Part shown: positions 4,972-32,168 of the stretch, piece after piece
How the letters are laid out: each line of letters opens with the position of its first letter
Position numbering within the stretch: position 1 is the first letter of the stretch
Assembly (NCBI GenBank): GCA_946407095.1
Contig: CAMJMR010000022.1
Coordinates: 1 to 41,556 of the forward strand
Length of the DNA stretch: 41,556 nucleotides
Reading direction: 5' to 3'
Origin: an uncultured Selenomonadales bacterium
GTDB lineage: Bacteria; Bacillota; Negativicutes; Selenomonadales; Selenomonadaceae
Notes under the pieces: model-generated
Databases searched by the model: none
Told to the model about the DNA's origin: nothing
What the model saw: only the letters and a program-made list of their open reading frames with translations
Position numbers and translations under genes: made by a program

Positions 4972-5132
4972 GGGGCGCGCATGGACGCGCGCCCGCCGGC
5001 AACAGAAACAGGGATGTTTCTTTGCCGGCACAGTCGGCTTCGGGTTGCGCGGGAGTTGCGGCAGTGGTCGGCAACCGCCCCTGCGAGGCGAATTTCTTTG
5101 CTACTTTCTTTCTTCGTTGAAAGAAAGTAGAT
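4972..5132. repeat. Structured intergenic repeat, family 1, copy A
   Basis: Three strong hairpins occur in order. They are GGGCGCGC/GCGCGCCC around ATGGAC (about 4973-4994), a 15-bp stem beginning GCCGGCAA (4995-5029), and CTACTTTCTTTC/GAAAGAAAGTAG around TTCGTT (5101-5130). A CGCCCCTGCGAGGCG segment precedes the last hairpin. Copies B, C and D at 9016, 23092 and 32004 share this order. Confidence 0.85.
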
Positions 5133-5158
5133 TCCAATCATTAAAAGCTGTCTTTGCG

Positions 5159-5186
5159 CCCTTTTGCTTAGCAAACGAAAGGGCAG
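5159..5186. other. Stem-loop downstream of the acetyltransferase gene
   Basis: GCCCTTT pairs with AAAGGGC around a 13-nt loop just past the maa-like stop. There is no clear T-run, so it may be an RNA-stabilising or weak termination hairpin. Confidence 0.4.
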
Positions 5187-5194
5187 CCCGCCGC

Positions 5195-5773
5195 TCATAC
5201 AAGCAAGGTCTCCAGTCCGATTTTCTTCACGACCCGCGCAGGATTGCCGAACGCCATAACGTTATCGGGAATGTCTTTCGTGACGAGCGACTTCGCGCCG
5301 ATAACCGAGCCGCTGCCAATCTTGACGCCGGGCAAAATCGTGACATCGCCGCCAATCCACACGTCGTCACCTATCACAATCGGCTTTGCCATTTCGAGCC
5401 CTTCGGCACGTTTGAGCGCGTCGAGCGGATGAATCGCCGTGTAGAAGTTGCAATTCGGTCCGACGAAAACTTTCTTGCCGAGGCGAATCTCCGCGCAGTC
5501 CATGAGGTAGCAGTTGTGATTGAGGAAAGTGCCCGCGCCCAAGTAAACGTTGTAACCGTAATCGACCATGAAGGGCGAGAGAATTTCAACCGCCTCCGCG
5601 TCGACGTTCGGCAAAATTTCGCGCAAAATCTTCCGCCGCCGATTCAATTCCTGCATACGCGTCAAGTTCAGCTCCAAACACAAATCTTTGACCGTAGCCC
5701 GCTCAACAATCAACCGTTCGTCGAAGTTGGCGTCGTACCATTGCCCCGCAAGCATTTTTTCCTTTTCCGTCAA
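5195..5773 (-). CDS. Maltose/galactoside-type O-acetyltransferase
   Basis: A 192-residue member of the Maa/LacA/NodL group, which transfers acetyl from acetyl-CoA to a sugar hydroxyl in the cytoplasm. The N-terminal helical cap begins LTEKEKMLAGQWYD, very like Maa. A left-handed beta-helix of hexapeptide repeats follows (VWIGGDVTILPGVKIGSGS, then VIGAKSLV) with the usual ending NPARVVKKI. The catalytic His is in NHNCY or AIHPL. The TTG start at 5771-5773 matches the family N-terminus and has GAGGAG 10 nt upstream; an upstream GTG and TTG are too close to that site. It is transcribed from a strong promoter divergent from the glycosyltransferase operon. The sugar acceptor is unknown. Confidence 0.9.
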   Translation of the reverse strand: MTEKEKMLAGQWYDANFDERLIVERATVKDLCLELNLTRMQELNRRRKILREILPNVDAEAVEILSPFMVDYGYNVYLGAGTFLNHNCYLMDCAEIRLGKKVFVGPNCNFYTAIHPLDALKRAEGLEMAKPIVIGDDVWIGGDVTILPGVKIGSGSVIGAKSLVTKDIPDNVMAFGNPARVVKKIGLETLLV

Positions 5774-5802
5774 AACGTTCACGCTCCTCAAAAATTTTTT
5801 TC

Positions 5803-5831
5803 ATTATAGCGAATTCGCCTTGACGAATCAA
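5803..5831 (-). promoter_or_regulatory. Promoter of the acetyltransferase gene
   Basis: Minus strand TTGATT, 17-nt spacer, perfect TATAAT. Its -35 box overlaps the -35 region of the divergent promoter at 5820-5848. Confidence 0.7.
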
Positions 5832-5848
5832 AGCCTGCTGTCTAAAAT
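5820..5848 (+). promoter_or_regulatory. Promoter of the DUF4422/ecfT/chromate transporter operon
   Basis: TTGACG (5820-5825), 17-nt spacer, TAAAAT (5843-5848), 22 nt before the DUF4422 gene. The two -35 boxes on opposite strands share bases, so the polymerases should compete. Confidence 0.65.
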
Positions 5849-5870
5849 TTTCGGCAAAGGGGGAATCCTT

Positions 5871-7373
5871 ATGGCTACTTACGTTCCGCGAGTGTTGCTT
5901 TGCGGCGACGCGGAAGAGTTCAGGAAAATCATAGGCGACAAGCCCGTCGAAGTGGTGGGGCAAGTAGAATTCGCTTGGGCGGGCGACGATGCGGCAAAAT
6001 TATTTTTCGACGGACACGAATTGACGGGCGAAGGGCTCAACCAACTGCTTGACGGCGCGGCGGAATATTTACTCTTCAACGACCCGCTTGAGCATAAAGC
6101 TTACCTTGAAACCTACCCGATGAACACGCAGATTCTGACGGCGGACGTCTTTGCAAAAAAATTTCGCGACGGATTCTTTTCGCTCGAATTGCTGTATTCC
6201 ATATCGGGGCTGCTTGTACAAGAAAATTTTTCGGGACGCGTCCTCGATTTTGATTGTTGCTTCGCCAAACTCGATTGTCGGGCGCGAATCAACTTCAACT
6301 TTGCGCTCGACGGCTTTGCAGAAAATTTCGGCGGCGAACTCTTCCCGATTACGGAAAACCTTTACGGAAAAATTTATCGGACGTTCGACGAATGCCGCTA
6401 TCACATTTTCGACGCGATTGTCCTGGCGAAGGAACGCACGCCCGAAGAATTCATGAACACGCTCGCCGCGACCGACGCCCTAAGCGGAAAAATTTTTGCC
6501 TTCATAAGGCGTTACTCCGTCCTTGAAAATTGGATTTACGCCTCGAAAGATATTTTCGCTCACGTCACGCGCTTTAATGAGCGCAACGGCGCATGGTATC
6601 TGATTGAAAAGAAAATGCCGCCCGCCGATTTGATCGTCTACGTCGTCACGCACAAGGACGCGCAACTGCCCGCCCTGCCCGAAGGCTACCGATTCATCCA
6701 CGCGGGTCACGCACTCGCCGCGCAGGACTTCGGCTATCTCGGCGACGACACCGGCGACAATATCAGCGCGTTAAATCACTACCTCGACGAAGCCACCGCG
6801 CTCTATTGGATTTGGAAGAACACCAAGCACACGCACGTTGGACTTATCCACTACCGCCGATTTTTCACCGCTGAAGCCCAAGAAACTTTCGACGCGACGA
6901 AAATCCTAAGCAAGGATGAAATTCTGCGGCTCCTCGGCGAATACGATATCATCGTTCAAGAAGAATACCTAAGGGAACGCAATCAGCTTGAGCTTATCCT
7001 CATCTCGACGGGACAGCCCGATTTGATAAGAATCACCGAAATGGTTATCCGCAAGCACTTGGCGAAGGCGCAACCCGATTATCTCGACGCCTACGACGCC
7101 GTGATTAACGGCTTTACGCTTTTCATTTGCGGAATCCACATCACGCGCCGAAATATCTTCGACGCCTATTGCCAATGGCTGTTCTCCTTCCTGCTCGACG
7201 CGACGATTGAACTGCGCGACAAAATTAGAGTCGGCGACATAAAGCTTGAGGAAATGCCGCACGTCTATTCGCGAATCGTCGGGCACTTCGCCGAAAGAAT
7301 GCTGACCGTTTGGCTCACGAAAAATCATTTGCGAATCAAAACTTTGCCCGTAATGTATCGCGAAAACGTTTAA
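5871..7373 (+). CDS. DUF4422 family protein (probable glycosyltransferase)
   Basis: A 500-residue cytoplasmic protein. The C-terminal half, from about residue 250 (IVYVVTHKDA), matches the DUF4422 family by its pattern HKD..., then DDTGDNIS, YWIWKN and HVGLIHYRRFF. That family is found in capsule and polysaccharide loci and resembles GT-A glycosyltransferases. The N-terminal 240 residues (starting MATYVPRVLLCGDAEEF) are a separate alpha/beta domain I do not recognise. The ATG at 5871 has GGGGG 8 nt upstream. It is first in an operon with ecfT (9-bp gap) and a chromate transporter half. Function as a sugar transferase is inferred from family context; donor and acceptor are unknown. Confidence 0.8.
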   Translation: MATYVPRVLLCGDAEEFRKIIGDKPVEVVGQVEFAWAGDDAAKLFFDGHELTGEGLNQLLDGAAEYLLFNDPLEHKAYLETYPMNTQILTADVFAKKFRDGFFSLELLYSISGLLVQENFSGRVLDFDCCFAKLDCRARINFNFALDGFAENFGGELFPITENLYGKIYRTFDECRYHIFDAIVLAKERTPEEFMNTLAATDALSGKIFAFIRRYSVLENWIYASKDIFAHVTRFNERNGAWYLIEKKMPPADLIVYVVTHKDAQLPALPEGYRFIHAGHALAAQDFGYLGDDTGDNISALNHYLDEATALYWIWKNTKHTHVGLIHYRRFFTAEAQETFDATKILSKDEILRLLGEYDIIVQEEYLRERNQLELILISTGQPDLIRITEMVIRKHLAKAQPDYLDAYDAVINGFTLFICGIHITRRNIFDAYCQWLFSFLLDATIELRDKIRVGDIKLEEMPHVYSRIVGHFAERMLTVWLTKNHLRIKTLPVMYRENV

Positions 7374-7382
7374 GGACTCGGA

Positions 7383-8189
7383 ATGCTAAAGGATATAACG
7401 CTCGGACAATTTTTCCCCGGCAATTCGATACTTCACCGCCTCGACCCGCGCACGAAAATAATTTCCCTGTTCGCGCTGATAATCGCAATTTTCGCGGCGC
7501 AAGGGTGGACGGCTTACCTTTTGCTGACGGGCGTGACGACGGGCTTGGTTTTGCTGTCGAAGGTGCCGCCGCTTATCGTTTTGAAGTCAATCAAGCCGCT
7601 CGCCTGGATAATCTTGTTCACGTTGCTTATTCACTTCGTAAGCCACGACGGCGAAGTCTTGGCGAAAGTTTACGTCTTCAAGGTGACGACGGAGGGAATC
7701 GTCTACGGCTTGCAGATAAGCTTGCGGCTGGTGCTTTTGATAGTGCTGTCGAGCTTGCTGACGTTCACGACTTCGCCGTTGCAGCTGACCGACGCCACGG
7801 AAAAACTTTTGTCGCCGCTTGCGAAAATCGGCGTGCCCGCTCACGAATTGGCAATGATGATGACGATAGCGATTCGATTCGTGCCGACGCTTTTGGAGGA
7901 GACCGACAAGATAATCAAGGCGCAAAAGTCGCGCGGGCTTGACTTCGATTCGGGCGGCCTAATCAAACGAATGCGGGCGATGGTGCCGATATTGGTGCCT
8001 TTGTTCCTGTCTAGCTTCAGACGCGCCGACGATTTGGCGATGGCAATGGAGGCGCGGTGCTATCGCGGCGGCGAAGGGCGCACTCACATGAAACGGCTCA
8101 CCTTGACGCGAAAAGACTTCTGCGCGGCGGGTGTCGTGGTTTTAATCTGCGCGGTCGTCGTCTTTGCCACGTTAAAGTTATCGGGCTAG
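7383..8189 (+). CDS. ecfT: Energy-coupling factor transporter transmembrane protein EcfT
   Basis: A 268-residue membrane protein that couples ATP hydrolysis by EcfA1/EcfA2 to a vitamin-binding S component. It starts with the typical region FFPGNSILHRLDPRTK, has several membrane segments, and carries the two coupling-helix arginine motifs in QKSRGLDF and MEARCYRGG. The ribosome-binding site AAGGA precedes the ATG. Normally it follows ecfA1-ecfA2, but neither ATPase nor an S component is nearby, so the ATPases must be coded elsewhere. The last 40 residues add a membrane segment after a basic stretch. Confidence 0.93.
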   Translation: MLKDITLGQFFPGNSILHRLDPRTKIISLFALIIAIFAAQGWTAYLLLTGVTTGLVLLSKVPPLIVLKSIKPLAWIILFTLLIHFVSHDGEVLAKVYVFKVTTEGIVYGLQISLRLVLLIVLSSLLTFTTSPLQLTDATEKLLSPLAKIGVPAHELAMMMTIAIRFVPTLLEETDKIIKAQKSRGLDFDSGGLIKRMRAMVPILVPLFLSSFRRADDLAMAMEARCYRGGEGRTHMKRLTLTRKDFCAAGVVVLICAVVVFATLKLSG

Positions 8190-8222
8190 CAATGCGCGAC
8201 TTCAATTATGAGGAGGCACGAC

Positions 8223-8789
8223 GTGATTTATTGGCTTTTGTTTTTTGAGTTCGCGAAGATAAGCTTGGTGTGCGTGGGCGGCGGCTACGCGTCAATGCCT
8301 TTGATTCAAGCGGCGGTCGTCGACACCTACCACTGGCTGAGCTTGAGCGAATTCATTGACATTTTCACGATATCGCAAATGACGCCCGGTCCGATTGGCA
8401 TAAATGCGGCGACGTTCGCGGGCATGAAGATTGCGGGGCTTGGCGGAGCGATTTGCGCGACGGCGGGCTTCGTGACGCCGAGTATTTTCCTGTGCATTGC
8501 GCTGGCGAAGATTATTTTCAAGTACGGCGACTTGGGCGCGATTCACGGCATTTTGAACGGCTTGCGCCCTGCGGTCATGGCGTTAATCGCGGCGGCTTGC
8601 GTGAGCTTCGTCCTGCTTGCCGTGTGGAATGCCGAATCGATGCCCGAAGATTTTTCCGCCACGTTCGATTGGAAGGGCGCAGTGATTTTAATCGGAGCGT
8701 TGGCGGCGGTGCGAATGAAAATCGGCGTGATTAAAGTTTTGCTCGCAAGCGGCGCGGCGGGTTTGCTATTGGGGATGGTGGCAACGTGA
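8223..8789 (+). CDS. Chromate transporter family protein, single-domain (CHR)
   Basis: A 188-residue membrane protein with the CHR hallmark GGGYASMPLIQAAVVD followed by QMTPGPIGIN. It is the likely second half of the pair with the minus-strand gene at 4367-4927; the two halves are normally adjacent. The GTG start at 8223 has GAGGAGG 6 nt upstream; an ATG at 8208 lies upstream of that site. The stop codon falls inside the palindrome GCAACGTGACGTTGC of an intergenic repeat, so the last residues (VAT) come from the repeat. Confidence 0.88.
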   Translation: MIYWLLFFEFAKISLVCVGGGYASMPLIQAAVVDTYHWLSLSEFIDIFTISQMTPGPIGINAATFAGMKIAGLGGAICATAGFVTPSIFLCIALAKIIFKYGDLGAIHGILNGLRPAVMALIAAACVSFVLLAVWNAESMPEDFSATFDWKGAVILIGALAAVRMKIGVIKVLLASGAAGLLLGMVAT

Positions 8790-8876
8790 CGTTGCATCCA
8801 GATAGCGCGCCGTGTCGTCCGACAATTCAAAGGTTTTCGCCGCGCCGATACGCAACGCTGCGCATTGCTAGTTTCG
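8780..8876. repeat. Palindromic intergenic repeat, family 2, copy at the chromate transporter 3' end
   Basis: It begins with GGCAACGTGACGTTGC (perfect arms GCAACG/CGTTGC). It then shares with 20450-20527 the blocks GCGCGCCGTG.CGTCCG, CGCCGCGCCGATACG and CTAGT.TC. Its first 24 bases recur at 9147-9170. Confidence 0.7.
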
Positions 8877-8903
8877 TAAATTTTTTTAGGATGGTGATTT
8901 GAT

Positions 8904-8981
8904 TTGGGCGACGCGATAATTTTGGCGATGGTCGTCTGCATGGTTTTTTACACGTTCGGCGACGAAATTTTTACCGAATAG
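8904..8981 (+). CDS. Possible 25-residue hydrophobic microprotein
   Basis: A TTG-started frame after AGGATGGTGAT codes for 25 residues: a hydrophobic core (AIILAMVVCMVFY) and an acidic end (GDEIFTE), like a single-span membrane peptide. It lies between two repeat elements in a stretch with no other gene. It could be chance; there is no homology information. Confidence 0.25.
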   Translation: MGDAIILAMVVCMVFYTFGDEIFTE

Positions 8982-9015
8982 GATGTGTTGGCAAGGAAAA
9001 CGTTGCAGAGGATGA

Positions 9016-9268
9016 GGGCGCGCATGGACGCGCGCCCGCCGCGACTTCGATGCCGGAAGCATCGATAGCGGCACGAGTGGCTGACCGGGACGCGGGCGTT
9101 GCGGCAGTGGTCGGTATCCGCCCCACGCGTAGTGGTGGCTTTCTTTGGCAACGTGACGTTGCATCCAGATGGCGCGTTGAAAGTCGTTGACGGCTTAAGG
9201 GTGGATGCCGCGTCCCAGCTGTTCCCCCGCTTTCAAAGCGGGTCTTTCGCCAGTGAAAGAAAGTAGAT
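9016..9268. repeat. Structured intergenic repeat, family 1, copy B, interrupted by a family 2 element
   Basis: The first hairpin (9016-9037) is identical to that of copy A. A second hairpin has arms CGATGC/GCATCG. The block GTTGCGGCAGTGGTCGG is shared with copy A, and CCGCCCCACGCGTAGTGG with inverted copy C. The terminal hairpin keeps its right arm GAAAGAAAGTAG, but the left arm is split by the insertion at 9147-9243. It ends 35 nt before the yfcE start. Confidence 0.8.
9147..9243. repeat. Family 2 element nested inside copy B
   Basis: It begins GGCAACGTGACGTTGCATCC as at 8780 and ends with the hairpin CCGCTTTCAAAGCGG. The reverse complement of that end (CCGCTTTGAAAGCGG, then GGAACAGC) resembles the starts at 14661 and 20431. 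Removing it restores a continuous terminal hairpin for copy B. Confidence 0.6.
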
Positions 9269-9302
9269 GCTAAACACAAACTTTGCAAAGGAGAGCTTTA
9301 TC

Positions 9303-9869
9303 ATGAAACTTGCTGTTATCAGCGACACGCACGGCTACGCAGACCGCGTTGCCCTGGCTATGGAAAAATTTTTCACGGGCGCGGAGTTGATTCTTCACGC
9401 GGGCGACGTCCTCAATCACGGGGCGCGCAATCCCAACTTCAGAGGCGAAGACTACAATCCGCAAAAGCTCGTTCCGCTTCTCAACGGCTCGAAAATCCCG
9501 CTGGTTATCGCACGCGGCAACGGCGACAGCGAATTGGACGACGACGTTTTGGAAACGCCTCTTGCGCCCTACGCGCACGTCTTCGCCAACGGCAAGCGCA
9601 TCGTCATCAATCACGGGCATTGGTTGCCGACCGACGCCGATAAGGACAAAATGGCGGCTCACTTCCGCGCAGATATTTTTATCACGGGTCACATCCACAA
9701 GCCCGTTTTGGAGCGGCGCAACGGCATTATCTTCCTCAACCCCGGCACGGTCAGCCCGCACCTTTCCAATCAGCCCGAAAAGCGCACAAGCGTTGCGACG
9801 ATTGACGACGACAAAATTCAAATCTTCGACCTCGACAGCGGCGAAGTGCTGATGAGTCTGGACGTTTAA
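9303..9869 (+). CDS. yfcE: YfcE/MJ0936-type phosphodiesterase
   Basis: A 188-residue calcineurin-like metallophosphoesterase. The metal ligands are in order: SDTHG near residue 7, HAGDV near 36-40, GNGD near 67, NHGHW, and the closing TGHIHKP. Length and motif order fit YfcE-type phosphodiesterases, which cleave artificial phosphodiesters; the natural substrate is unclear. The ATG at 9303 has AAGGAGAG 7 nt upstream. It precedes hisH by 15 nt, so the two are probably cotranscribed. Confidence 0.9.
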   Translation: MKLAVISDTHGYADRVALAMEKFFTGAELILHAGDVLNHGARNPNFRGEDYNPQKLVPLLNGSKIPLVIARGNGDSELDDDVLETPLAPYAHVFANGKRIVINHGHWLPTDADKDKMAAHFRADIFITGHIHKPVLERRNGIIFLNPGTVSPHLSNQPEKRTSVATIDDDKIQIFDLDSGEVLMSLDV

Positions 9870-9884
9870 GCGGAGGCGGGCGAC

Positions 9885-10484
9885 GTGTTGGCGTTGATTG
9901 ATTACGGCGTGGGGAACCTTTACAGCGTGGCGAAGGCGTTGGCTTATGTCGGCGGCGACGTGACGATTACGAGCGCGGCGGAGGATATTGAACGCGCCGG
10001 GAAATTGATTTTGCCGGGAGTCGGCGCGTTCGGCGACTGCATGAAAAATCTTGAGGCGACGGGCTTGATTCCTACGATTTTGCGCGAAGTGCAGGCGGGC
10101 AAGCCGATTCTTGGGATTTGCGTCGGTTTGCAGATTATGTTCGCGGGCAGCGAGGAAAGTCCGAATGTCGACGGGCTGAAGATATTCGGCGGGCGCGTGA
10201 GGAAAATCTGCGCGGACGGCTTGAAGATACCGCACATGGGCTGGAACTCTGTCCGCTTCGGCGAATCGAAACTTTTTGCGGGCTTGCGCGGCGAGCCTTA
10301 CTTTTATTTCGTGCACAGCTATCACGCCGCCCCCGCCGATACGAATTTGATTGCGGCGACGACCACTTACGGCGAAACCGTCACGGCGGCTCTTGAGCGG
10401 GATAACATTTTCGCGACGCAATTTCACCCCGAAAAGTCGGGCGACGTCGGCTTGCGCGTCTTGAAAAATTTCCTCGACGCTTGA
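9885..10484 (+). CDS. hisH: Imidazole glycerol phosphate synthase glutaminase subunit HisH
   Basis: A 199-residue class I glutamine amidotransferase that feeds ammonia to HisF in histidine synthesis. The N-terminus is IDYGVGNLYSV, the nucleophile is Cys in GICVGLQIMF, and His/Glu come from FATQFHPEKSGDVG. The motif PHMGWN is typical of HisH. The GTG start at 9885 has GGAGG 8 nt upstream. No other his gene is within the window, so hisH is detached from hisF and the rest of the pathway here. The McrB-like gene begins 12 nt after its stop. Confidence 0.95.
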   Translation: MLALIDYGVGNLYSVAKALAYVGGDVTITSAAEDIERAGKLILPGVGAFGDCMKNLEATGLIPTILREVQAGKPILGICVGLQIMFAGSEESPNVDGLKIFGGRVRKICADGLKIPHMGWNSVRFGESKLFAGLRGEPYFYFVHSYHAAPADTNLIAATTTYGETVTAALERDNIFATQFHPEKSGDVGLRVLKNFLDA

Positions 10485-10496
10485 GGAGGCGGGCGC

Positions 10497-10628
10497 ATGG
10501 CTTATCAGCGGAAAGCAGGCGACAACAGAACCTTTTGGCGCGTTAATCACGGCGCGGGGCATTTTTCAATCGAAGACTGAGCTTTTTTCCTCGAACAAAG
10601 AGTCATTGTCGTTGCCGGCACTTTTGAA
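10497..10628 (+). pseudogene. 5' part of the McrB-like gene, cut by an in-frame TGA
   Basis: An ATG at 10497 preceded by GAGGAGG at ideal distance opens 27 codons (MAYQRKAGDNRTFWRVNHGA...) and stops at TGA 10578-10580. Reading on in the same frame gives 16 sense codons that join the McrB-like frame at 10629 without any shift. The pieces together resemble a PUA/EVE-like N-terminal reader domain. The simplest view is a nonsense mutation in the original N-terminus. Confidence 0.7.
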
Positions 10629-13048: not shown

Positions 13049-13063
13049 CAGGCATGACTTTAA

Positions 13064-13219
13064 AGTTGGCGCGCAGGAGACAATCCCGAATGCGTTTATT
13101 CCGTCACAGTTTTCAACGGCGAGCCTTTCGTCGACGACTTGGTCAACGCAAAAATTTTCCTCGACGGCAAATCAATCGCCGAGGGCGAGGCGGATATTGA
13201 CGTAGAATTTTATACGTGA
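13064..13219 (+). pseudogene. 3' remnant of a paralogue of the zinc-ribbon gene at 13903
   Basis: An open frame without a start codon codes for a C-terminal tail matching that of the 13903-14640 protein: NAKIFLDGKSIAEGEADI here against NAPIFPDGKSIVEAQAEI there. Only about 50 residues remain. It follows the mcrC stop directly and runs into the DUF4417 fragment, so a deletion has probably joined two gene ends. Confidence 0.6.
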
Positions 13220-13891: not shown

Positions 13892-13902
13892 GGGGATTTG
13901 TT

Positions 13903-14640: not shown

Positions 14641-14658
14641 TTAAGCCTGTCCGCACGG

Positions 14659-14683: not shown

Positions 14684-14721
14684 GATAACGCGTTGACAAC
14701 GTTCGATAACTTCAGCCAGTC

Positions 14722-14769: not shown

Positions 14770-14782
14770 TATTGTCCAAAAT

Positions 14783-23037: not shown

Positions 23038-23091
23038 GAAGAATCACCTTAAACTTTCGTTGCGTTGCGAGGGTTTGTTGGCAGTTTTTAA

Positions 23092-23253
23092 CTAACTTTC
23101 TTTGACCGGGCAAAGAAAGTAGCAAAGAAACCCGCCACTACGCGTGGGGCGGATATCAATCGTGGACGAAGTGTCCGCGCTACCCGAAGCCGTGTGTGCG
23201 CCGCTACTTCGCATCACGCTCAGTACGCGGCGCGGCCGCCGTCCTTGGCGGCC
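23092..23253. repeat. Structured intergenic repeat, family 1, copy C (inverted)
   Basis: The reverse complement carries the same order as the other copies: hairpin GGCCGCC/GGCGGCC around AAGGAC, then CCGCCCCACGCGTAGTGG (as in B), TTTCTTTG, then the terminal hairpin CTACTTTCTTTG/CAAAGAAAG around CCCGGT, with one base inserted in the right arm. It lies between telA and the membrane protein gene; 23254-23292 shows no gene. Confidence 0.8.
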
Positions 23254-23292
23254 TCGTCCCCTGCAACGTCTTCGTTATTTTACCAACAGTCC

Positions 23293-24456
23293 CTAATTGG
23301 CTGCTCTCGTTGCGTTTTGGAGGAGCGTGTCTTTGAGCCGCCCTTCAATCGCAAGAAGTTCTTTTTCGGCGGCTTGACGTTTCTGCCGTCCTTCCTGCTG
23401 AATGCGCAACGTCTCTTGAATCGTCGAAATTAAATCCTCGTTGACTTTCTTGACGGTGTCGATGTCGACGATGCCGCGCTCGTTCGCCTTCGCCGTGTCG
23501 ATTGAGTTTTGCTTGAGCATTTCGGCGTTGCGGCGGAGGAGGTCGTTGGTGGCGTCGCTTACCATGCGCTGAAGTTCAATCGTCTCTTTCTGGCGCGATA
23601 AGCCCAACGCAATGACCAGCTGATTTTTCCAGAGCGGAATGGTGTGGTAAATGGCGGATTGCACGCGGTCGATTAGGACGCGGTCGTTGTTCTGAATCAA
23701 ACGGATTTGCGGCGCGGTTTGAATCGCCAACGTCTTGCTTAGCTTGAGGTCGTGAATTTTTTTCTCGAAGCGGTCGACGCTTTGTTCAAAGTCGCTGACG
23801 ACTTGCACGGCCATAGGGTCGCCCGACGCCGTCGCCTGTTCGCGAAGCTTGGGCAGTGTCACGTTGCGAATCTCGTCAAGCTTTTCCTCCCCGGCGCGAA
23901 TGTACAGCTGCAACTGCTTGAAGTACTCAAGATTTTTCTGATAGAGCGTGTCGAACATGACGACATCCTCCATCATTTTGACTTTGGAATTTTCGAGCCC
24001 CGCTTGAATCTTTTCGACTTGCACCGACAGCTTGTCGTAGCTTTGCATGACATCTTCGGCCTTGTTGACGAGCTTGCCGACAATCGGGATGTTGCTTAGG
24101 AAGCCGCCGCTTTTCTTTGTCACGTCGAAGCCCTTGACTTTGCCGACGAGCTCATTGAGCAGGACGCCGACTTCGCCTGCGTCCTTGGCGCGCACCTTGG
24201 CGAGAATGCTGTCCGAGAATTGCGCGATTTCCTTTTGCGCGGGCGAGCCGAAACTTAACGGCGTGCTTGAGTCCATTAAGTCGATGCCGTCCTTGATTGA
24301 GTTGACTTTGGCGAGTTCTTCGGGCGAAAGCGTTTCGATTTGTTGAGTGACTTTCGCGATTTCCTTTTCGGGTTCGACGGGCTTGTCGTCCTTGGCGGGC
24401 TCCGAGGCGGCCGCCTTCTTTTTGGCCATCAAGTCTGCAAGGTTTATGTCTGCCAT
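23293..24456 (-). CDS. telA: TelA family toxic-anion resistance protein
   Basis: A 387-residue cytoplasmic, largely coiled-coil protein of the TelA/KlaA family, linked to tellurite and other stress resistance. Recognisable segments are VGKLVNKAEDVMQSYDKLSV, LYQKNLEYFKQLQLYI and IPLWKNQLVIALGLSRQ. It starts at an ATG with AAAGGAG upstream. It follows xpaC by 33 nt on the same strand, the usual pairing in Firmicutes. The molecular activity of TelA is unknown; envelope-stress roles are proposed for the family. Confidence 0.92.
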   Translation of the reverse strand: MADINLADLMAKKKAAASEPAKDDKPVEPEKEIAKVTQQIETLSPEELAKVNSIKDGIDLMDSSTPLSFGSPAQKEIAQFSDSILAKVRAKDAGEVGVLLNELVGKVKGFDVTKKSGGFLSNIPIVGKLVNKAEDVMQSYDKLSVQVEKIQAGLENSKVKMMEDVVMFDTLYQKNLEYFKQLQLYIRAGEEKLDEIRNVTLPKLREQATASGDPMAVQVVSDFEQSVDRFEKKIHDLKLSKTLAIQTAPQIRLIQNNDRVLIDRVQSAIYHTIPLWKNQLVIALGLSRQKETIELQRMVSDATNDLLRRNAEMLKQNSIDTAKANERGIVDIDTVKKVNEDLISTIQETLRIQQEGRQKRQAAEKELLAIEGRLKDTLLQNATRAAN

Positions 24457-24489
24457 TTAAATGAGCTCCTTTCGTTTCAAGGTTGCGAG

Positions 24490-25476: not shown

Positions 25477-25514
25477 AGCTTGCACCTCCCGCCGAGTAAA
25501 AATTTTCCGCGCAG

Positions 25515-25543
25515 ATTGTACCATAAATATTTCAGGCTTGCAC
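25515..25543 (-). promoter_or_regulatory. Probable promoter of xpaC-telA
   Basis: Minus strand extended -10 TGGTACAAT with a weak -35 (GTGCAA) 17 nt upstream, about 40 nt before the xpaC start. Confidence 0.45.
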
Positions 25544-25551
25544 GATTTTTT

Positions 25552-25568
25552 AATGCGCAATGCGCAAT
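25552..25568. repeat. Heptanucleotide tandem repeat (AATGCGC units)
   Basis: AATGCGC, AATGCGC, then AATG in direct register. The unit is the same as at 19799-19826. Confidence 0.55.
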
Positions 25569-25575
25569 GTTACGG

Positions 25576-25632
25576 TGCAAAAAAAATCCCCCGCGCAGAT
25601 TCGCAGGAGATTGATTCGCAGGGAATTTTTTA
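25576..25632 (-). terminator. Probable terminator of the ndk/galM operon
   Basis: Read on the minus strand, TCCCTGCG can pair with CGCGGGGGA across a loop with two TGCGAATC units, followed by eight T. It lies just past the epimerase stop. Confidence 0.6.
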
Positions 25633-25651
25633 TTTGCCCGAAGACAACGAT

Positions 25652-26530: not shown

Positions 26531-26545
26531 TGCAATTCCTCCCCG

Positions 26546-26962
26546 TCAATCGAAAATTTCATACGCGCCGAAGAAAATCGGAATTTCGCGCGCCGCGCTT
26601 GCCTCGCTGTCGGAGGCGTGCACGGCGTTTTTGGTTTTGTCCTCGGCGTAGAGTTTGCGAATCGTGCCGTCGGCAGCCTCGGCAGGATTGGTCGCGCCGT
26701 TGAGCTCGCGGACTTTTTTAATCACGTCGTCGCCCGCCAAGACCACAGCCATAATCGGCGCACTCGTCATGAAGTCAACCAGCGCGGGATAATACGAACG
26801 TCCGATGTGTTCGGCGTAGTGTTTCGCGGCAAGAGCGGGCGTCATGCGCATGACTTTCGCCGCCAAGATTTTGAAGCCCGCCTCCTCATAAAGCTTGAGA
26901 ATCGCGCCCGCGTGACCTTTGCCGAACGCGTCGGGCTTGATGAGCACCAAAGTTTTTTCCAT
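26546..26962 (-). CDS. ndk: Nucleoside diphosphate kinase
   Basis: A 138-residue enzyme that moves phosphate between NTPs and NDPs. It starts METLVLIKPDAF-like (MEKTLVLIKPDAFGKG) and has the phospho-His site NAVHASDS and the usual end AAREIPIFFG. The ATG has AAGGAG 7 nt upstream. Ndk is normally a lone core gene; here it lies inside an operon with nucleotide-sugar-type genes (12-bp gap to the opine dehydrogenase), where it could supply CTP or another NTP for the nucleotidyltransferase. That link is inference. Confidence 0.97.
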   Translation of the reverse strand: MEKTLVLIKPDAFGKGHAGAILKLYEEAGFKILAAKVMRMTPALAAKHYAEHIGRSYYPALVDFMTSAPIMAVVLAGDDVIKKVRELNGATNPAEAADGTIRKLYAEDKTKNAVHASDSEASAAREIPIFFGAYEIFD

Positions 26963-26974
26963 AAAGTTTTCTCC

Positions 26975-28051
26975 TTAATAAAATTTATAAATGTCTTCCG
27001 CAGAGTTTATTCCGTAGTCGCTAAGTTTGACGGCGCGGGTAAAATTTCCTGTCTTGCGCCGGTACCAATTCATGACCGCGTTCATGGTCGGCGAATTCAA
27101 TTTCAGTGTCTCGGCGAACTGCAAGAGAAGGTCCAGGCCGAATTCAAAATCACACTTGAAATATCTGTTGTCGAAGTCGGGACGCCAACCGTCGGCAGTC
27201 TGTTTCATCGGCGAAAGAATTTTGCTTAAGGACGGAATGCCCCGCAACTTTTTCGTCAAGGCGGGAACGGTGTCGCTCTCGTAGTGAACTTTCAGCGAAA
27301 CCACGTCGCTCAAGTCAAATTCAGGCAACGCCCGACAAATCGCTTGAACTTCGTCGTCAAGCTTGAATAAAGTGTCGGAGGCCTCGTCATTCCACGCCGC
27401 GTAGAAAGGCTCGTTGTGCTCGAAAGCCGAATCCGACTGCCCGAACATGGCGTAAAGCCTTGACGTGTGCAGGACGGGATTTGACGGCGTCAACGTTATC
27501 GACAAATAATTTCCCGAAGCCGCGCAGGGAACGACGAAAAGTTTTTCCATATCGCGAACGACCGCCGCAACTTCCTTGCCGCGAAACGCCGCCAAGCTTA
27601 TCGACGACTTTCGCTCAAACCAAACGCTTTTGCCGTACTGCTTGAGGCGGGCGATATAAGGCACGCGCTTGAAGCCGAAAAGCTCCGCGCCGCGTTTCAA
27701 AAGCGGTTGCAGTAAAAATTCTGCGCCGCCGAAGCCCGGAATCATTACGAGTTTCGTTTTGTCGTCGACGAAGGGCGCAACTCTATCCGCGAAGGCGGCT
27801 TGAACATGCGACGGCAACGTCACGAAAACATAATCGACGGAATCAAACGCCTCCGCTGCTTCTGACGTTACCAAATTCAAATCGGCGTTAAATTCCTGCG
27901 CGGGCTCCCCATAATTGCTGACCGACGCAAAAATTTTTCTTTGCCAATCTTGCGGGCGTGAAGTCAAGACGTTGACCGAATGATTTTTCGCGGCGAAGTC
28001 GACAGCCATAGCCGTGCCGAGGTTTCCGCCGCCGACAATGCAAATCTTCAC
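26975..28051 (-). CDS. NAD(P)-dependent octopine/nopaline (opine) dehydrogenase family protein
   Basis: A 358-residue oxidoreductase. The N-terminal Rossmann fold has the nucleotide motif GGGNLGTAMA (residues 7-16). The C-terminal helical domain has SNPVLHTSRLYAMFG, with the conserved His, typical of opine dehydrogenases, which reductively join an amino acid and a keto acid. It overlaps the aminotransferase gene by 4 bp and is followed 12 nt later by ndk. Beside a nucleotidyltransferase and an aminotransferase it probably makes or modifies a secondary amine on a cell-surface or exported compound. The exact substrates cannot be read. Confidence 0.85.
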   Translation of the reverse strand: MKICIVGGGNLGTAMAVDFAAKNHSVNVLTSRPQDWQRKIFASVSNYGEPAQEFNADLNLVTSEAAEAFDSVDYVFVTLPSHVQAAFADRVAPFVDDKTKLVMIPGFGGAEFLLQPLLKRGAELFGFKRVPYIARLKQYGKSVWFERKSSISLAAFRGKEVAAVVRDMEKLFVVPCAASGNYLSITLTPSNPVLHTSRLYAMFGQSDSAFEHNEPFYAAWNDEASDTLFKLDDEVQAICRALPEFDLSDVVSLKVHYESDTVPALTKKLRGIPSLSKILSPMKQTADGWRPDFDNRYFKCDFEFGLDLLLQFAETLKLNSPTMNAVMNWYRRKTGNFTRAVKLSDYGINSAEDIYKFY

Positions 28052-29151
28052 GCCGACAGCTCCTTTCTCAGCGCGGCAAGCAATTTGTCGTTATCCTCTG
28101 CCGCCCGCACGGCAAGGCGCAGATAATTCTTGCCCGAAACTTTTGCCGACAAGTCTTTGACGAAAATGTTGTGACCGATTAAAAGCCGCTTGCAGAGTTC
28201 CTTGGACGAAATTTTTCCGACAAGTTCAACCATGATGAAATTCGCTTGAGACGGCACGACGCGCACGCCCGAAATTTTTTCCAGCTCGGCGGCAAAACGT
28301 TTGCGTTCTTCGCGGAGGCGGCGGAGCGATTCGGCATAGGCGCGCTTGTACTTTTCAAAAATCTGCATATAGAATTCGGCGAACGAATTGATATTCCAAA
28401 TGGCAACGTCCTTTTTCAGCGCGGCGATAAGATTTTCGTCGCCCGACGCCAAAACGCCCAAGCGCAATCCGCCGATGCCGTGAGACTTCGACAGGCTCTT
28501 CATTACGCAAAGATGTTTGTTCGCGCTCAAAATTTTTTTCTCAATCAGCGTCGCGTCCTCGTCGGCGAAGTCTGCAAAGCTCTCGTCGACAATCAGCCGA
28601 ATATTTTTTTCCGCCGCCCAATTAATCAGCCGAATCAGCTCAAGTTTCGGAATGAAGTTGCCCGAAGGATTGTCGGGGTTGACGACGACCAGCACGCTTA
28701 TCTCTTGCTCGCCGAAGAAATTTATCAGCTCGGCGGCAGTGTAGGAAAAATTTTCGTTCGACGGCGCGAAGTAAATCGATTCGGCTTTGTCGTAGCGGTT
28801 GGGATATTCCTCGAACGTCGGGCGCACGAAACCGATTTTGCCGGAAAGACGTTGCAAGAGATCTTTAATCAGCTCGGCGGCGCCGTTGCCGACCAAAATA
28901 TTTTCTTCGTGAACGCCAAAATTTTTCGCCGCAAGCAAAGAGTTGACCCTCATGCCCGAAGGATATTGCGTCAAGAGTTTCGCGGCGTTGGCGGTAATTT
29001 CTTCGACAAGCCTCTGCGGCGGGAAGTAGGGATTAACCGAATAGCAAAAGTCAATCATCTTGGGATAACGCCAGTAGCCGCCGTAACGCCCTTGAATGCG
29101 CGCAAGCTTCTCGTCGGCGTCGGGCGCGAAAATCGATTCGGCGATGTCCAA
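28048..29151 (-). CDS. HisC/CobD-like PLP aminotransferase, probably the C-terminal half of a frame-split fusion
   Basis: A fold-type I aminotransferase of 367 residues from a TTG. Key motifs are VNPDNPSGNF, DESFADF and SLSKSHGIGGLRLG with the PLP-binding Lys. The C-terminus is ANFIMVEL...NYLRLAV. It resembles histidinol-phosphate and threonine-phosphate (CobD) enzymes. The frame is open upstream of 29151 and gives KTLHWYEIDDIQDLDIAE, a sequence normal for the end of a nucleotidyltransferase domain. So the natural protein is a nucleotidyltransferase-aminotransferase fusion broken at the 10-G tract 29198-29207. The visible start has no clear ribosome-binding site. An alternative is separate translation by reinitiation. 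Confidence 0.85.
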   Translation of the reverse strand: MDIAESIFAPDADEKLARIQGRYGGYWRYPKMIDFCYSVNPYFPPQRLVEEITANAAKLLTQYPSGMRVNSLLAAKNFGVHEENILVGNGAAELIKDLLQRLSGKIGFVRPTFEEYPNRYDKAESIYFAPSNENFSYTAAELINFFGEQEISVLVVVNPDNPSGNFIPKLELIRLINWAAEKNIRLIVDESFADFADEDATLIEKKILSANKHLCVMKSLSKSHGIGGLRLGVLASGDENLIAALKKDVAIWNINSFAEFYMQIFEKYKRAYAESLRRLREERKRFAAELEKISGVRVVPSQANFIMVELVGKISSKELCKRLLIGHNIFVKDLSAKVSGKNYLRLAVRAAEDNDKLLAALRKELSA

Positions 29152-29888
29152 ATCTTGAATGTCGTCGATTTCGTACCAGTGCAGAGTCTTGCAAAATCCC
29201 CCCCCCCTACGCGTATGGTATCCAGCCGCTTGGCGCGAATCTCCGGCTCGTCAAGAATCATGATGACGCGCAGAACTTGTTCGTAATATTCGTTGTCGCC
29301 CAGGGCTGTTGAGTAGGCGTCGAGGAAGGGCACGTAAATGTTTTCCGAGAAATGCCGCCCGAATTTGTAAATGTTGACGGTCTTGTAGCAGTCGGCGGTG
29401 TCTTTGAAGTTGAAATCCTTGCCCGAAATGAACTTGTCGATTTTGTCGTCGGCGGTGATTTTTATGCAAGTGCCGTCCATCCAGCTTTCGTACTTGTCGA
29501 CGAGCGCGAGCGTGTCACGCGGGTCGTTGAGCAGTTCCTCAAGCAAGCTGTCTTCAAAAATCAAATCGGACTCAAGCAAAAGCGTATCTTCCTTGCAAAG
29601 ATAATCCTTCGCCAGAAACAGCGAGTAGATATTGTTCGTCTTGTCGTAAATGGGATTGTTGACGTATACAATCGGCGTTTGAATGTCGAGCGTGGCGATG
29701 TATTCAATCAGCTTTTGCCCTTGATAGCCGACGACGACAACAATGCGCGACAGGTGTTGCTTTTCGAGCTGATGAAGCATTCGGTCAATCAGCGTGACGC
29801 CGTTGACTTTGACCATGCATTTGGTATTGTCCTGCGTCAATTCTTTCAGTCGTTTGCCCATGCCCGCGGCGAGAATAATCGCTTGCAT
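29055..29888 (-). CDS. Nucleotidyltransferase (phosphocholine-cytidylyltransferase-like), frameshifted at its 3' end
   Basis: A 277-residue frame. The first 225 residues are a GT-A fold NTP transferase: LAAGMGKRLKELTQDNTKCM (nucleotide and Lys motif), then VVVVGYQGQ, LLLESDLIF with the metal Asp, and GDNEYYEQV. After the codons GTA GGG GGG GGG the frame reads out of phase and the last 45 residues are meaningless overlap with the aminotransferase gene. A change from 10 to 11 or 8 G would fuse both domains into a protein of about 600 residues. The ATG directly follows the methyltransferase stop. Related enzymes activate choline- or amino-alcohol phosphates with CTP; the substrate here is unknown. 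Confidence 0.85.
   Translation of the reverse strand: MQAIILAAGMGKRLKELTQDNTKCMVKVNGVTLIDRMLHQLEKQHLSRIVVVVGYQGQKLIEYIATLDIQTPIVYVNNPIYDKTNNIYSLFLAKDYLCKEDTLLLESDLIFEDSLLEELLNDPRDTLALVDKYESWMDGTCIKITADDKIDKFISGKDFNFKDTADCYKTVNIYKFGRHFSENIYVPFLDAYSTALGDNEYYEQVLRVIMILDEPEIRAKRLDTIRVGGGDFARLCTGTKSTTFKIWTSPNRFSRPTPTRSLRAFKGVTAATGVIPR
29198..29207 (-). repeat. 10-G homopolymer tract in coding sequence (phase-variation candidate)
   Basis: Ten consecutive C on the plus strand (G on the coding strand), far longer than any other G/C run noticed in the window. It sits exactly where the nucleotidyltransferase and aminotransferase frames part. Confidence 0.9.
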
Positions 29889-30434
29889 TTAATCGAGTCT
29901 CCTTTCCATGAAGCAATGATAGGTAAAGAGAGCGTTGCCGTAGCCTTCCAAGTCATTTTTCGTGAAGCGAATCGAAAGATTGTGACGGGCGGCGAAGTCC
30001 TCAAAGAACCTGCGCGGGTAAAAAAGTTTCGGCAAATCTTTGTAGCGTTCGTCGTAATCGGCTATCGTCTGCCGGCGGTGATTCATGTGGACTTCCTCAA
30101 GGTCTTTGTCGTAGGTGCCGAGCACGGCGACGGAGCGGCGGCTCTTTTGCAACATTTTTTCCAAGACGCGTTCGGCATAGTTGAAGTCGTTGAAGTAAGG
30201 AAAGACGCCGTTTGAAAAGACCGCGTCGTATTTTTTGTCGGTCGGCAATTCGTCCGCGCCCGCGCAGATAATTTCGCCGAGCTTGTCGGCAGGGATAACC
30301 TTTTTGGCAATGTCAATCAGCGTCGACGAATAATCGAGCCCGCCGACTTCAAAGCCGTCACGGGCGAAAAGGTAAAGATTCGCGCCCGCGCCGCAGCCGA
30401 CTTCAAACACATTGCCAACCCCACGCACGGTCAA
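29889..30434 (-). CDS. SAM-dependent methyltransferase (class I), main part
   Basis: A 181-residue frame from a TTG. It has the SAM-binding loop FEVGCGAGANLYLF, the acidic ribose residue in VGGLDYSS, and DAVFSNGVFPYFND as motif IV. The C-terminus (about 140-180) looks complete. Fifty codons of the true N-terminus are cut off by a TAA at 30453-30455 in the same frame (see next entry). As shown it lacks the N-terminal helix that normally closes over SAM and has no proper ribosome-binding site. Its stop is followed at once by the nucleotidyltransferase ATG. The target, possibly the product of this operon, is unknown. Confidence 0.8.
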   Translation of the reverse strand: MTVRGVGNVFEVGCGAGANLYLFARDGFEVGGLDYSSTLIDIAKKVIPADKLGEIICAGADELPTDKKYDAVFSNGVFPYFNDFNYAERVLEKMLQKSRRSVAVLGTYDKDLEEVHMNHRRQTIADYDERYKDLPKLFYPRRFFEDFAARHNLSIRFTKNDLEGYGNALFTYHCFMERRLD

Positions 30435-30605
30435 TGCGGCCTTAGTGTTTTCTTATTGGCGAAGGAGCGATTCAACGGAAGGACCGTCGTTCACGTCGAA
30501 GCCGTCAATGCGCTTTAGTTCGACGAAGACAGCGCGATAATCCTGCGCGTCGACGTTGCCGAGAGTGTCCTTGCGGCTTTCCCAAATCTTTTTCCAGTTG
30601 TTCAT
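30435..30605 (-). pseudogene. 5' part of the methyltransferase gene, ended by an in-frame TAA
   Basis: An ATG at 30605 with GGAGG upstream opens 50 codons (MNNWKKIWESRKDTL...) ending at TAA 30453-30455. The same frame continues into the methyltransferase at 30434 with sensible sequence (ENTKAAL). The N-terminus MNNWKKIWESR is typical of such methyltransferases, so this is one gene with a single nonsense codon. Confidence 0.75.
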
Positions 30606-30696
30606 AATTCAGCCTCCAATTCTTTTGACTTCGCGGCTTTAGGTTTTAGCACCCGAAATATTTTAACACGCTTTGTCCGCAGTGCCTAATTCCTTA

Positions 30697-31965
30697 TCAC
30701 AGATAATCCCAAGGGCTGACGGGCTCGCCGTTGACGCGAACTTCAAAGTGGCAGTGCGGCCCCGTCGAGTTGCCGGTTGAGCCGCAATAGGCGACGACTT
30801 GCCCTTGACTGACTTGCTGGCCGACGCCGACCGCCAAGCTTTCATTGTGGCCGTAAAGCGTGACGATGCCGCCGCCGTGGTCAATCATAATCGTGTTGCC
30901 GTAGCCGCCAATCCAACCCGCCTCAATCACGACGCCGCTTTGCGCCGCGCAGATGGGCAAGCCGTAATCGCCGCCGATGTCAAGCCCGCTGTGGAACCTT
31001 GCGCTGCCGAAGATGGGATGCGTGCGCCAACCGAATTCGGACGTTATCGGTCCGCTTAACGGCCAAGTCATGCTGCCGCCGTAGCTCTGCATGACGTAGC
31101 CGCCGCCGTCGTCTCCGAAGTCAACGACTTCCACATTGCCCGATTGAGCCGCCGCTTGCCGTTGAGCCTCCAGTTCCGCCTGCCGCCGAGCCGCTTCAGC
31201 CGCCTCCGCCTGCCGACGACGTTCCTCCTCCTTTTCCAAAATCAGCCGCTGAACTTCCGCGCTTGACGCCATCATTTCGTCGTACTGCCTGTCGTAAACG
31301 TCCTTGTCGTTTTGCATTAAGTCTATCAGTGCTTGTTGCTTTGCCGCCTTTTCGAGCTTTATGTCCTTGGCCTCCTCCGCCTTTGCCGCCAATTCCGTTT
31401 GAATGCGCTTGTCCGCTTCCAACTGCTTGCCGACTTCCTTAATCTGCGTCTGATAAGCCAAAACGTCCGCCACCAGCTCCGAATCGCGAATTATGACGCG
31501 CTTAAGCAAATCCATTCGCGTCAAGAAGTCTCCGAAGTCCTGCGCGCCGAACAGCACGTCCAGATAAGAAATTTGCCCGTTGATGTAGATGTCGCGCACT
31601 CGCTTTTCAAGGACGGCGTGCTTTTCGTTGAGTTCTTGAGTGACTTCGGCAAGCTTGGTTTCGTTCTCGCCGATGCGGTAAACGGTTTCGTCAAGGGCGA
31701 CCTGTCGCTCTTCGTAGACGGCTGTGGCCTGCGCGGCGTCTTCGTCGAGTTGACGCTTGAACTCGGACACCGAATCGATTTTGCCCTGAATCAGCTCCGC
31801 CGCTTGGCGCGCACGTTCGGCCGCCTCCTCGTAGCTTGCCTTTTCCGATTCGAGCTGTTCAATTTCGTCGACCTCTTCGGCGTCGTCCTCGTCGTCGGCA
31901 AAAGCGGGCGAAGTCAGCAGAAAAGTTATCGTCGCCAACAATATCAAAAATTTTTTCAAAGCCAA
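30697..31965 (-). CDS. EnvC-like murein hydrolase activator / M23 peptidase
   Basis: A 422-residue exported protein. Residues 1-23 are a signal peptide (MALKKFLILLATITFLLTS...). Residues 30-270 are a long coiled coil. A short Gly-rich linker leads to the LytM/M23 domain with zinc ligands in RFHSGLDIGG and GPHCHFEV, and PWDYL at the C-terminus. All four M23 metal/catalytic residues seem present, so unlike E. coli EnvC it may be an active endopeptidase. It lies downstream of ftsX, the usual partner that recruits it. The TTG start follows GAGG; an in-frame TTG two codons later is also possible. The gap to ftsX is 251 bp and holds repeat copy D. Confidence 0.9.
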   Translation of the reverse strand: MALKKFLILLATITFLLTSPAFADDEDDAEEVDEIEQLESEKASYEEAAERARQAAELIQGKIDSVSEFKRQLDEDAAQATAVYEERQVALDETVYRIGENETKLAEVTQELNEKHAVLEKRVRDIYINGQISYLDVLFGAQDFGDFLTRMDLLKRVIIRDSELVADVLAYQTQIKEVGKQLEADKRIQTELAAKAEEAKDIKLEKAAKQQALIDLMQNDKDVYDRQYDEMMASSAEVQRLILEKEEERRRQAEAAEAARRQAELEAQRQAAAQSGNVEVVDFGDDGGGYVMQSYGGSMTWPLSGPITSEFGWRTHPIFGSARFHSGLDIGGDYGLPICAAQSGVVIEAGWIGGYGNTIMIDHGGGIVTLYGHNESLAVGVGQQVSQGQVVAYCGSTGNSTGPHCHFEVRVNGEPVSPWDYL

Positions 31966-32003
31966 TCAAACCTCATTCCAAACTGACACGCCGCGAATTT
32001 TGA

Positions 32004-32168
32004 GGCCGTCATGGATGACGGCCGCCGGCAACAAAAACATGGAAGTTTTTTTGCCGGCACAAGCGGTTTCGGGTAGGCGCAACGTTTCGTCGACGACGGA
32101 TTAACGCCCCTGCGAGGCGCCTTTTCTTTTTGCTACTTTTTCTTTGGGCGTGCAAAGAAAAAGTAGAT
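32004..32168. repeat. Structured intergenic repeat, family 1, copy D
   Basis: Hairpin GGCCGTC/GACGGCC around ATGGAT, then a stem of about 15 bp beginning GCCGGCAA (32024-32058), CGCCCCTGCGAGGCG as in copy A, and the terminal hairpin CTACTTTTTCTTTG/CAAAGAAAAAGTAG around GGCGTG (32133-32166). Stem bases differ from copy A on both sides. Confidence 0.85.

Follow-up and report, generated by a model that had tools for sequence, protein, structure and literature searches.

This work concerns a family of folded, repeated elements with four copies (A to D) in the window, by which we mean the whole 41,556-nucleotide stretch analysed here, contig C22 of genome G000 (2,596,808 bases, 89% complete; contig CAMJMR010000022.1 of GenBank assembly GCA_946407095.1). 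The four repeats were confirmed as real members of a genus-wide, high-copy element family of rumen Quinella-like bacteria. We propose, with a probability of about one half, that they are copies of a mobile structured-RNA element that carries a CsrA-docking hairpin and an exonuclease-blocking triplex pseudoknot. The structural part of this proposal, a mobile element whose GGA-type hairpins and triplex-matching pseudoknot most likely fold as RNA, is very probable, and the functional part taken by itself, in which that RNA would dock CsrA and resist exonucleases, is doubtful.

Fold of the element

One strand of the element would fold into three parts: a first hairpin (HP1) with its stem around ANGGAY, a second hairpin (HP2) with its stem around GGA or GUGA, and an H-type pseudoknot at the 3' end. 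The last hairpin, described as a plain stem in the first-pass annotation of this DNA, is a real stem, but it is only half of the pseudoknot, which runs X, L1, S2a, a loop containing X', and S2b, with X pairing with X' in the loop to form S1 and with L1 matching the purine arm as the third strand of a triplex would. S1 has mostly 4-6 base pairs (bp) and S2 has 10-14 bp with a 3' arm that consists mostly of A and G, and L1 is UUUCUUU-like. The four copies were found, on checking of coordinates and stems, where that annotation had placed them:

4973 to 5132, plus strand: copy A; HP1 4973-4994, HP2 4995-5029, pseudoknot 5089-5130 with X CGAA (5089-5092), L1 TTTCTTTG (5093-5100), S2a (5101-5112), loop with X' TTCG (5113-5118) and S2b (5119-5130)
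9016 to 9268, plus strand: copy B; HP1 9016-9037, HP2 9038-9072, pseudoknot with X TGGC (9136-9139), L1 (9140-9147), loop with X' GCCA (9249-9254) and S2b (9255-9266)
23091 to 23253, minus strand: copy C; HP1 23234-23253, HP2 23198-23233, pseudoknot at about 23095-23134 (X CGGG, X' CCCG)
32004 to 32168, plus strand: copy D, flanked by ftsX and an envC-like gene; HP1 32004-32023, HP2 32024-32058, pseudoknot 32117-32166 with X GCGCC (32117-32121), L1 (32122-32132), S2a (32133-32145), loop (32146-32153) and S2b (32154-32166)

The stems are also as first described: A and B share the HP1 arms GGGCGCGC/GCGCGCCC, copy C has GGCCGCC/GGCGGCC and copy D has GGCCGTC/GACGGCC, with ATGGA or AAGGA between the arms. 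The last stem is closed by C-G in A but by G-C in C and D, and that of D has two further pairs. Two details need correction: copy B carries an insert of about 100 bases inside its last hairpin, which takes the place of most of S2a, and in copy C the 3' arm contains one additional base. The insert in copy B (9148-9243) is a module beginning GCAACGTGACGTTGCATCCAG that recurs within the last hairpin of several copies (B, L145, L150) and is also present at the ftsX site, the same gene junction, of the relative L032; in B, L145 and L032 it ends near a CCGCTT..AAGCGGG hairpin. An extra hairpin (GCCCTTTTGCTTAGCAAACGAAAGGGC-like or CTTTCTTGCGCGGGAAGAAAGG-like) often lies 3' of the element, for instance in the right flanks of A, D and several other copies of the same genome.

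The paired changes in the stems had been read as a sign that the folded form is selected, and this is borne out by strong covariation in both HP1 and the pseudoknot. Among 33 distinct HP1 sequences from many species, pre-selected for at least 5 of 7 pairs, 99.1% of the cells are paired, nearly all as Watson-Crick pairs, and 5 of the 7 pairs have changed on both sides; the covariation of 0.685 compares with 0.184 +/- 0.027 in shuffled sets and at most 0.188 in slid versions. For the whole pseudoknot, computed on 21 sequences of equal length, covariation was 0.155 vs 0.094 +/- 0.008 (0 of 500 shuffles reached it; slid versions gave at most 0.095), and 4 of the 6 S1 pairs were altered on both sides in these sequences. 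A search that required 5 or more of the 7 pairs, and ANGGAY as the loop, found HP1 upstream of the pseudoknot in 36 of the 37 own elements (those of the window's genome) and in 41 of 48 others. Folding z-scores ranged from -4.5 to -7.4 for the HP1-HP2 parts of all four copies and were weaker for the last-hairpin parts folded without the pseudoknot (A -2.9, C -1.3, D -2.5). RNAalifold recovered only 7 pairs from a 34-copy alignment, because MAFFT misregistered stems that differ in length.

The pairing of X with X' was examined in 89 elements, mostly from the genus, which give 61 distinct combinations. The longest Watson-Crick run averaged 4.0, compared with 2.69 +/- 0.10 for shuffled partners (0 of 5000 shuffles reached the observed value), and at least 4 bp were present in 45 of the 61; the types include CGAA/TTCG, CGAG/CTCG, CGGG/CCCG, TGGC/GCCA, GCGG/CCGC, CACC/GGTG, TGCC/GGCA and TGTC/GACA. 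On the strand that carries L1, one-sided changes over S1, outer S2 and HP1 produced 30 G-T and 5 A-C combinations, an excess that favours a single strand folding as RNA, and we infer that the active form is probably an RNA of the pyrimidine-loop strand.

The third strand

L1 mirrors S2a rather than repeating it, and would therefore run parallel to S2b, with its U facing A and its C facing G. Triples of the types U.A-U and C+.G-C require such a parallel pyrimidine third strand along the purine arm. The last run of L1 equals the last (3') run of the purine arm S2b in 86 of the 89 elements, and two of the three exceptions (L225, L241) appear to be rows taken from the wrong strand. Among the 59 asymmetric elements the parallel register was found in 57 and a direct repeat in none, and the direct-repeat reading of L1 was rejected. 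In the IMG/VR set of 2.9 million viral contigs, three parallel-register patterns gave 13, 17 and 8 matches (38, at 36 distinct loci), as opposed to 0, 0 and 0 for wrong-register controls of the same composition and 0 for a control in which the C of L1 was changed to T; a symmetric pattern matched 29 viral stretches, partly the same elements. The scans did not require X to pair with X', and the viral elements nevertheless had a mean run of 3.91 vs 2.57 +/- 0.13 shuffled over 46 distinct combinations (a count that predates the third parallel scan with its 8 matches), with 0 of 3000 shuffles reaching the observed mean and at least 4 bp in 24 of the 46. The L1-S2b pattern is thus the sequence signature of a pyrimidine-motif triple helix within an H-type pseudoknot. 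In such a fold L1 would occupy the groove of the double helix as its third strand, and the motif would be shared with distant bacteria and phages.

Copy number and distribution

A strict pattern for the last hairpin had 129 exact matches in the genome and 0 for a reversed-pattern control, so that the hairpin is not a chance occurrence. The covariance model that the first-pass annotation had called for was built from 11 copies and, counted at E <= 0.01, gave 72 matches in a sample of 441,556 bases (the window and 20 stretches of 20 kb, 17% of the genome), of which 49 span the full model and nearly all of the others are the palindromic last hairpin read from the opposite strand. Together with the gene overlaps reported below and the covariation, these counts support a multi-copy, largely intergenic family with a conserved folded form.

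When 60 genomes of relatives were scanned with the model, with up to 48 candidates scored per genome, matches were found in 27, all from the same genus (27 of its 37 genomes, the window's own included), and in 0 of the 23 genomes from other families. Copies in other species have differing stem sequences and an identical layout. Core modules are shuffled, with one HP2 type paired with three or four HP1 types. In g23, a second genus of the same family from outside the 60-genome set, a pattern search detected the pseudoknot in 3 genomes, and the loci that were read have HP1, HP2 and a short form of the pseudoknot. One pattern class was present in 5 of 398 genomes of a Bacillota sample, namely the window's own, the 3 of g23 and G230. 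Furthermore, a 57-base query matched 7 plasmid records, and the 3 that were opened are from Pseudoalteromonas, Ilyobacter (Fusobacteriota) and Paraburkholderia, with X-X' runs of 4-5. Relatives of the window's FtsX include those of 'Quinella sp. 1Q7' (89% identity) and '2Q5' (82%), together with rumen Selenomonadaceae, which suggests that the host is a Quinella-like member of the Selenomonadaceae.

Mobility and the selfish-DNA alternative

Some copies of the element appear to be internal cargo of miniature inverted-repeat transposable elements (MITEs), a reading supported by terminal inverted repeats (TIRs) and a TA target shared with a genomic element of the IS5 family of insertion sequences (IS). 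Three near-identical copies have exact ends, the left one being TAGGGTCTGTTGG and the right one either CCAACAGCCC(C)TA or CCAACAGCCCTTA, and TA is present at both ends of the copies with exact ends. The TIR, with at most one mismatch, had 146 matches in the genome and 0 in the control, and TIR pairs in the loci read are mostly about 240-320 bases apart. One pair (C6:1939-2795 of G000) bounds a reading frame (C6:2397-2720) that is 72% identical to a relative's transposase, and this transposase matches DUF4096 of the IS4/5 family. A related autonomous IS bounded by ends of this kind is thus present in the genome. The TIRs seen in the window are:

23280 to 23295, minus strand: left TIR of the MITE around copy C, TAGGGACTGTTGGTAA
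23069 to 23084, plus strand: right TIR (degenerate) of the same MITE, GAGGGTTTGTTGGCAG
4271 to 4286, plus strand: solitary TIR, TAGGGGCTGTTGGTAA, which belongs to this IS/MITE family and lies some 700 bases upstream of copy A, with no core seen there

At the ftsX site of copy D, 43 of 52 loci from relatives (L025-L076) could be used, the other 9 having a contig end or a different next gene, and the element is absent from 42 of the 43. The remaining site, in L032, holds on reading an interrupted element that resembles copy B, although the pattern test alone, for which a positive control was run, gave 0 of 43. No match to the Y1_Tnp transposase (PF01797, RAYT) was found in G000, which is 89% complete, and an element of the RAYT/REP type was rejected for that reason. 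Two differing IS ends (TAGGGGTTGTTGGTAAATTAAAAG and TAGGGACTGTGGACAA-like) are located at the contig ends C4, C5, C17 and C27 of the genome, and also at C16, C69, C87 and C91, so that IS copies probably broke the assembly, as is expected of a collapsed multi-copy IS.

The proposal of a mobile non-autonomous repeat, one of several made by the first-pass annotation, therefore holds for the part of the family that sits in a TIR/TA transposon and does not extend to all of it. TIRs flank 7 of the 37 own cores on both sides and 12 on one side, and the other 18 have none (any TIR in 19), compared with 0.2% of random positions with both. Because only 19 of 37 cores have any TIR, the MITE label does not cover all copies, and the conserved unit is rather the RNA-like core, for which the MITE is one vehicle. 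This bears on the strongest alternative, that the element is selfish DNA only, an IS5-family MITE with no RNA role whose palindromes are kept for transposition or by template-switch correction. The TIRs, the TA target, the matching genomic IS, the largely intergenic and strand-neutral placement and the almost exclusively Watson-Crick pairs of HP1 are all consistent with it. It has to contend with the 18 cores that have no TIR, with the occurrence of the same pseudoknot in other contexts (viral contigs, Pseudoalteromonas, Ilyobacter and Paraburkholderia), with the excess of G-T over A-C, and with S1 and the parallel third strand, which are non-palindromic and thus not explained by palindrome correction. 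We consider this alternative improbable, though it is the most serious of those weighed here.

Position relative to genes

The position of the element relative to genes, which the first-pass annotation had asked to be counted, is mostly intergenic. With a caller based on codon usage (coding fraction 0.877), 31 of the 37 own cores are free of genes, and the overlap is at most 28 bases in 2 and 128-163 bases in 4, with one neighbour of copy A misjudged by this caller; with a laxer caller 20 of 37 are free of overlap, the extra overlaps being mostly with short frames called inside elements, and with a greedy caller of open reading frames (ORFs) 14 of 37 pseudoknots lie under an ORF. Based on the greedy ORFs, 111 of 130 elements have both neighbours, of which 39 have both genes in the same orientation as the element, 37 in the opposite one, 26 are convergent and 9 divergent. 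The better caller, applied to 78 own and other-species copies, gave 30 same, 21 opposite, 13 convergent and 7 divergent, and the remaining 7 lack a neighbour.

These counts bear on another suggestion of the first-pass annotation, that the element is a transcript-end or processing signal, a terminator or 3' mRNA stabiliser of its neighbours in the manner of REP/BIME. The larger number of convergent than divergent gene pairs (26 vs 9, or 13 vs 7) would be expected of such a signal, as would the U-rich tract that follows a G+C-rich hairpin in many copies, and a terminator scan flagged sites within copies A and C. However, terminator-like sites were not enriched over shuffles (8 vs 9.0 and 12 vs 18.4), and a terminator was rejected in spite of the flagged sites; own copies also lie between divergent genes (5 of 37 with the better caller, 6 of 37 with the codon-usage caller), and the co-directional genes show no clear strand preference, so that most copies are not strand-specific cis elements of neighbouring genes. 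The suggestion thus found little support, and we regard this explanation as unlikely, more so than selfish DNA. Least likely of all is a DNA-level hairpin or H-DNA triplex, single- or double-stranded, serving replication, recombination or transposition, because, while strand-neutral placement would suit it and the mirror rule is also compatible with a purine-motif triplex on the opposite strand, the X-X' pairing demands one folded single strand, the asymmetry of G-T and A-C favours one strand, and the genome, as far as it is complete, has no Y1_Tnp transposase.

Known relatives

The first-pass annotation knew of no named family that matches. An Rfam scan of the window at gathering level, RF01731 included, gave no match, and a permissive scan of 4900-9400 gave a single one, to RF00223 (E 0.12, 8586-8663, minus strand), outside copies A and B. 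A named relative does exist, in the form of the TwoAYGGAY RNA (RF01731), and the window remains below its cut-off. It is a described but unexplained class of RNA (Weinberg 2010, PMC2864571), and binding of CsrA has been put forward for it (PMC4333381). The two resemble each other in having adjacent hairpins with AYGGAY-type loops in a C-ANGGAY-G context and in often being multi-copy; they differ in that the long outer stem of RF01731 was not seen in the cores read, which have the 3' pseudoknot instead, and in that HP2 is often GUGA rather than GGA. In the Pseudoalteromonas locus L272, a match to RF01731 of 56.7 bits (cut-off 43) ends at the start of the pseudoknot, and on the other strand matches of 43.1 and 34.1 have pseudoknots about 50 and 210 bases 3'. 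With stricter filters and up to 38 candidates scored per genome, RF01731 was found in 4 of the 60 relatives at E <= 0.001 and in 0 of 60 above the cut-off; in the window's genus 9 matches below the cut-off occur in 4 genomes, 8 of them over the hairpin part only, and the elements are therefore kin to TwoAYGGAY and not members of it by the Rfam test.

Among the 398 Bacillota genomes, scored for up to 6 candidates each, RF01731 was present in 50 at E <= 0.001 and above the cut-off in 33. Bacillota genomes often have TwoAYGGAY in several copies, as many as the 6 that were scored, and this is more in keeping with a repeat element than with a single small RNA gene. The pseudoknot was found in 0 of 30 TwoAYGGAY loci fetched from other Bacillota, and those that were read have a long outer stem where it would stand. 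A second Rfam family, Bp1_684 (RF02421), a predicted small RNA of Burkholderia, has a consensus whose first part, AGAAAAGUGACC, is the 3' arm of a pseudoknot stem of this type, in a model without X, L1 and the 5' arm. It appears to start in the middle of the pseudoknot, and the model may therefore be truncated at its 5' end; L274 matches it with 37.3 and 27.7 vs a cut-off of 44, at about 996-1040 (minus strand) and 1501-1545 (plus strand). Among the loci scanned, no Rfam family covers the knot.

Several known structures are comparable. The SAM-II and preQ1 riboswitches are likewise compact bacterial pseudoknots stabilised by triples, but they are single metabolite-binding regulatory leaders, whereas the elements described here are dispersed, mobile and high-copy and have a longer polypyrimidine third strand. 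The telomerase RNA pseudoknot shares the H-type layout and the parallel third strand. In Kluyveromyces lactis it too is a pseudoknot with a pyrimidine-rich triplex, according to PMC4689454; our elements differ in being from bacteria and phages with no link to telomerase, and their third strand is predicted from covariation. ENE triplexes, such as that of a plant retrotransposon (PMC12501189), also combine a U-rich strand and an RNA triplex with a mobile element, but the U-rich internal loops of ENEs, which occur in eukaryotes and viruses, take a poly(A) tail as their partner, whereas here the partner is a local hairpin. IS5-family MITEs have TIRs, the TA target and a matching genomic IS in common with some of our copies and differ in that the latter have a conserved three-part fold that is also found without these TIRs. 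No description of a pseudoknot of this kind was found among the papers screened by title and the opening of the abstract. We lean, somewhat more firmly than to the full proposal for the window, to the view that the knot represents a class of RNA that has so far gone unrecognised and that crosses phyla in bacteria and their phages. It would be a compact H-type pseudoknot held together by a pyrimidine-motif triple helix, a module of mobile elements (joined to TwoAYGGAY-type hairpins in Pseudoalteromonas and the Quinella genus), a bacterial counterpart of the eukaryotic ENE and telomerase triplexes, and present in hundreds of copies per genome, a figure extrapolated from the 49 full-model matches in 17% of the window's genome.

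Proposed role

A GGA in a hairpin loop is the CsrA site of the SELEX (systematic evolution of ligands by exponential enrichment) consensus. The csrA gene is present in the window's genome and in 33 of the 37 genus genomes, which permits the CsrA hypothesis and is no test of CsrA binding. The ANGGA hairpin may be a docking site for a protein that binds RNA, with CsrA the likeliest candidate, as suggested for TwoAYGGAY (PMC4333381), and the triple-helix pseudoknot could act as a roadblock against 3' exonucleases, by analogy with the ENE triplexes. The element would spread as cargo of mobile DNA, possibly because little harm is done between genes.

Several observations weigh against such a mobile, CsrA-docking RNA. 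The TIRs are missing from nearly half of the own cores, as described above; the scan listed no promoter-like sites on the element strand directly 5' of the window copies; and the co-directional genes are close to balanced (39 vs 37, and 30 vs 21). Of 54 viral and plasmid elements with the pseudoknot, only 5 also have HP1. In HP2, GGA occurs in 20 of the 32 own copies but in only 6 of 35 from other species, the rest being mostly GUGA; this weakens a two-site CsrA model, and csrA is also found in genomes that have no element matches. S1 does not hold everywhere, the exceptions being a short variant, whose X is ACATG and whose loop is GCGCC, and the g23 and G230 copies, where the X-X' runs are 1-3 long. 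The base changes were counted in copies that are related by descent and not independent, the S1 excess of G-T comes partly from a conserved U that faces a conserved G, and mismatches other than G-T and A-C also occur in S1, outer S2 and HP1; because of the conserved U/G pair and the related copies, the weight of the G-T asymmetry is moderate.

If the proposed RNA element is real, bacteria and phages would possess a widespread triple-helix RNA motif, the TwoAYGGAY class would gain a relative with many natural variants, and both the CsrA hypothesis and a triplex-protected bacterial RNA would be directly testable. Since the third strand is legible from sequence alone, the motif can be searched for everywhere.

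Apart from the element, the start of the contig (9-347 of the window) contains a reading frame that is built of near-perfect repeats (LTSAGLTSSAALAGAAA).

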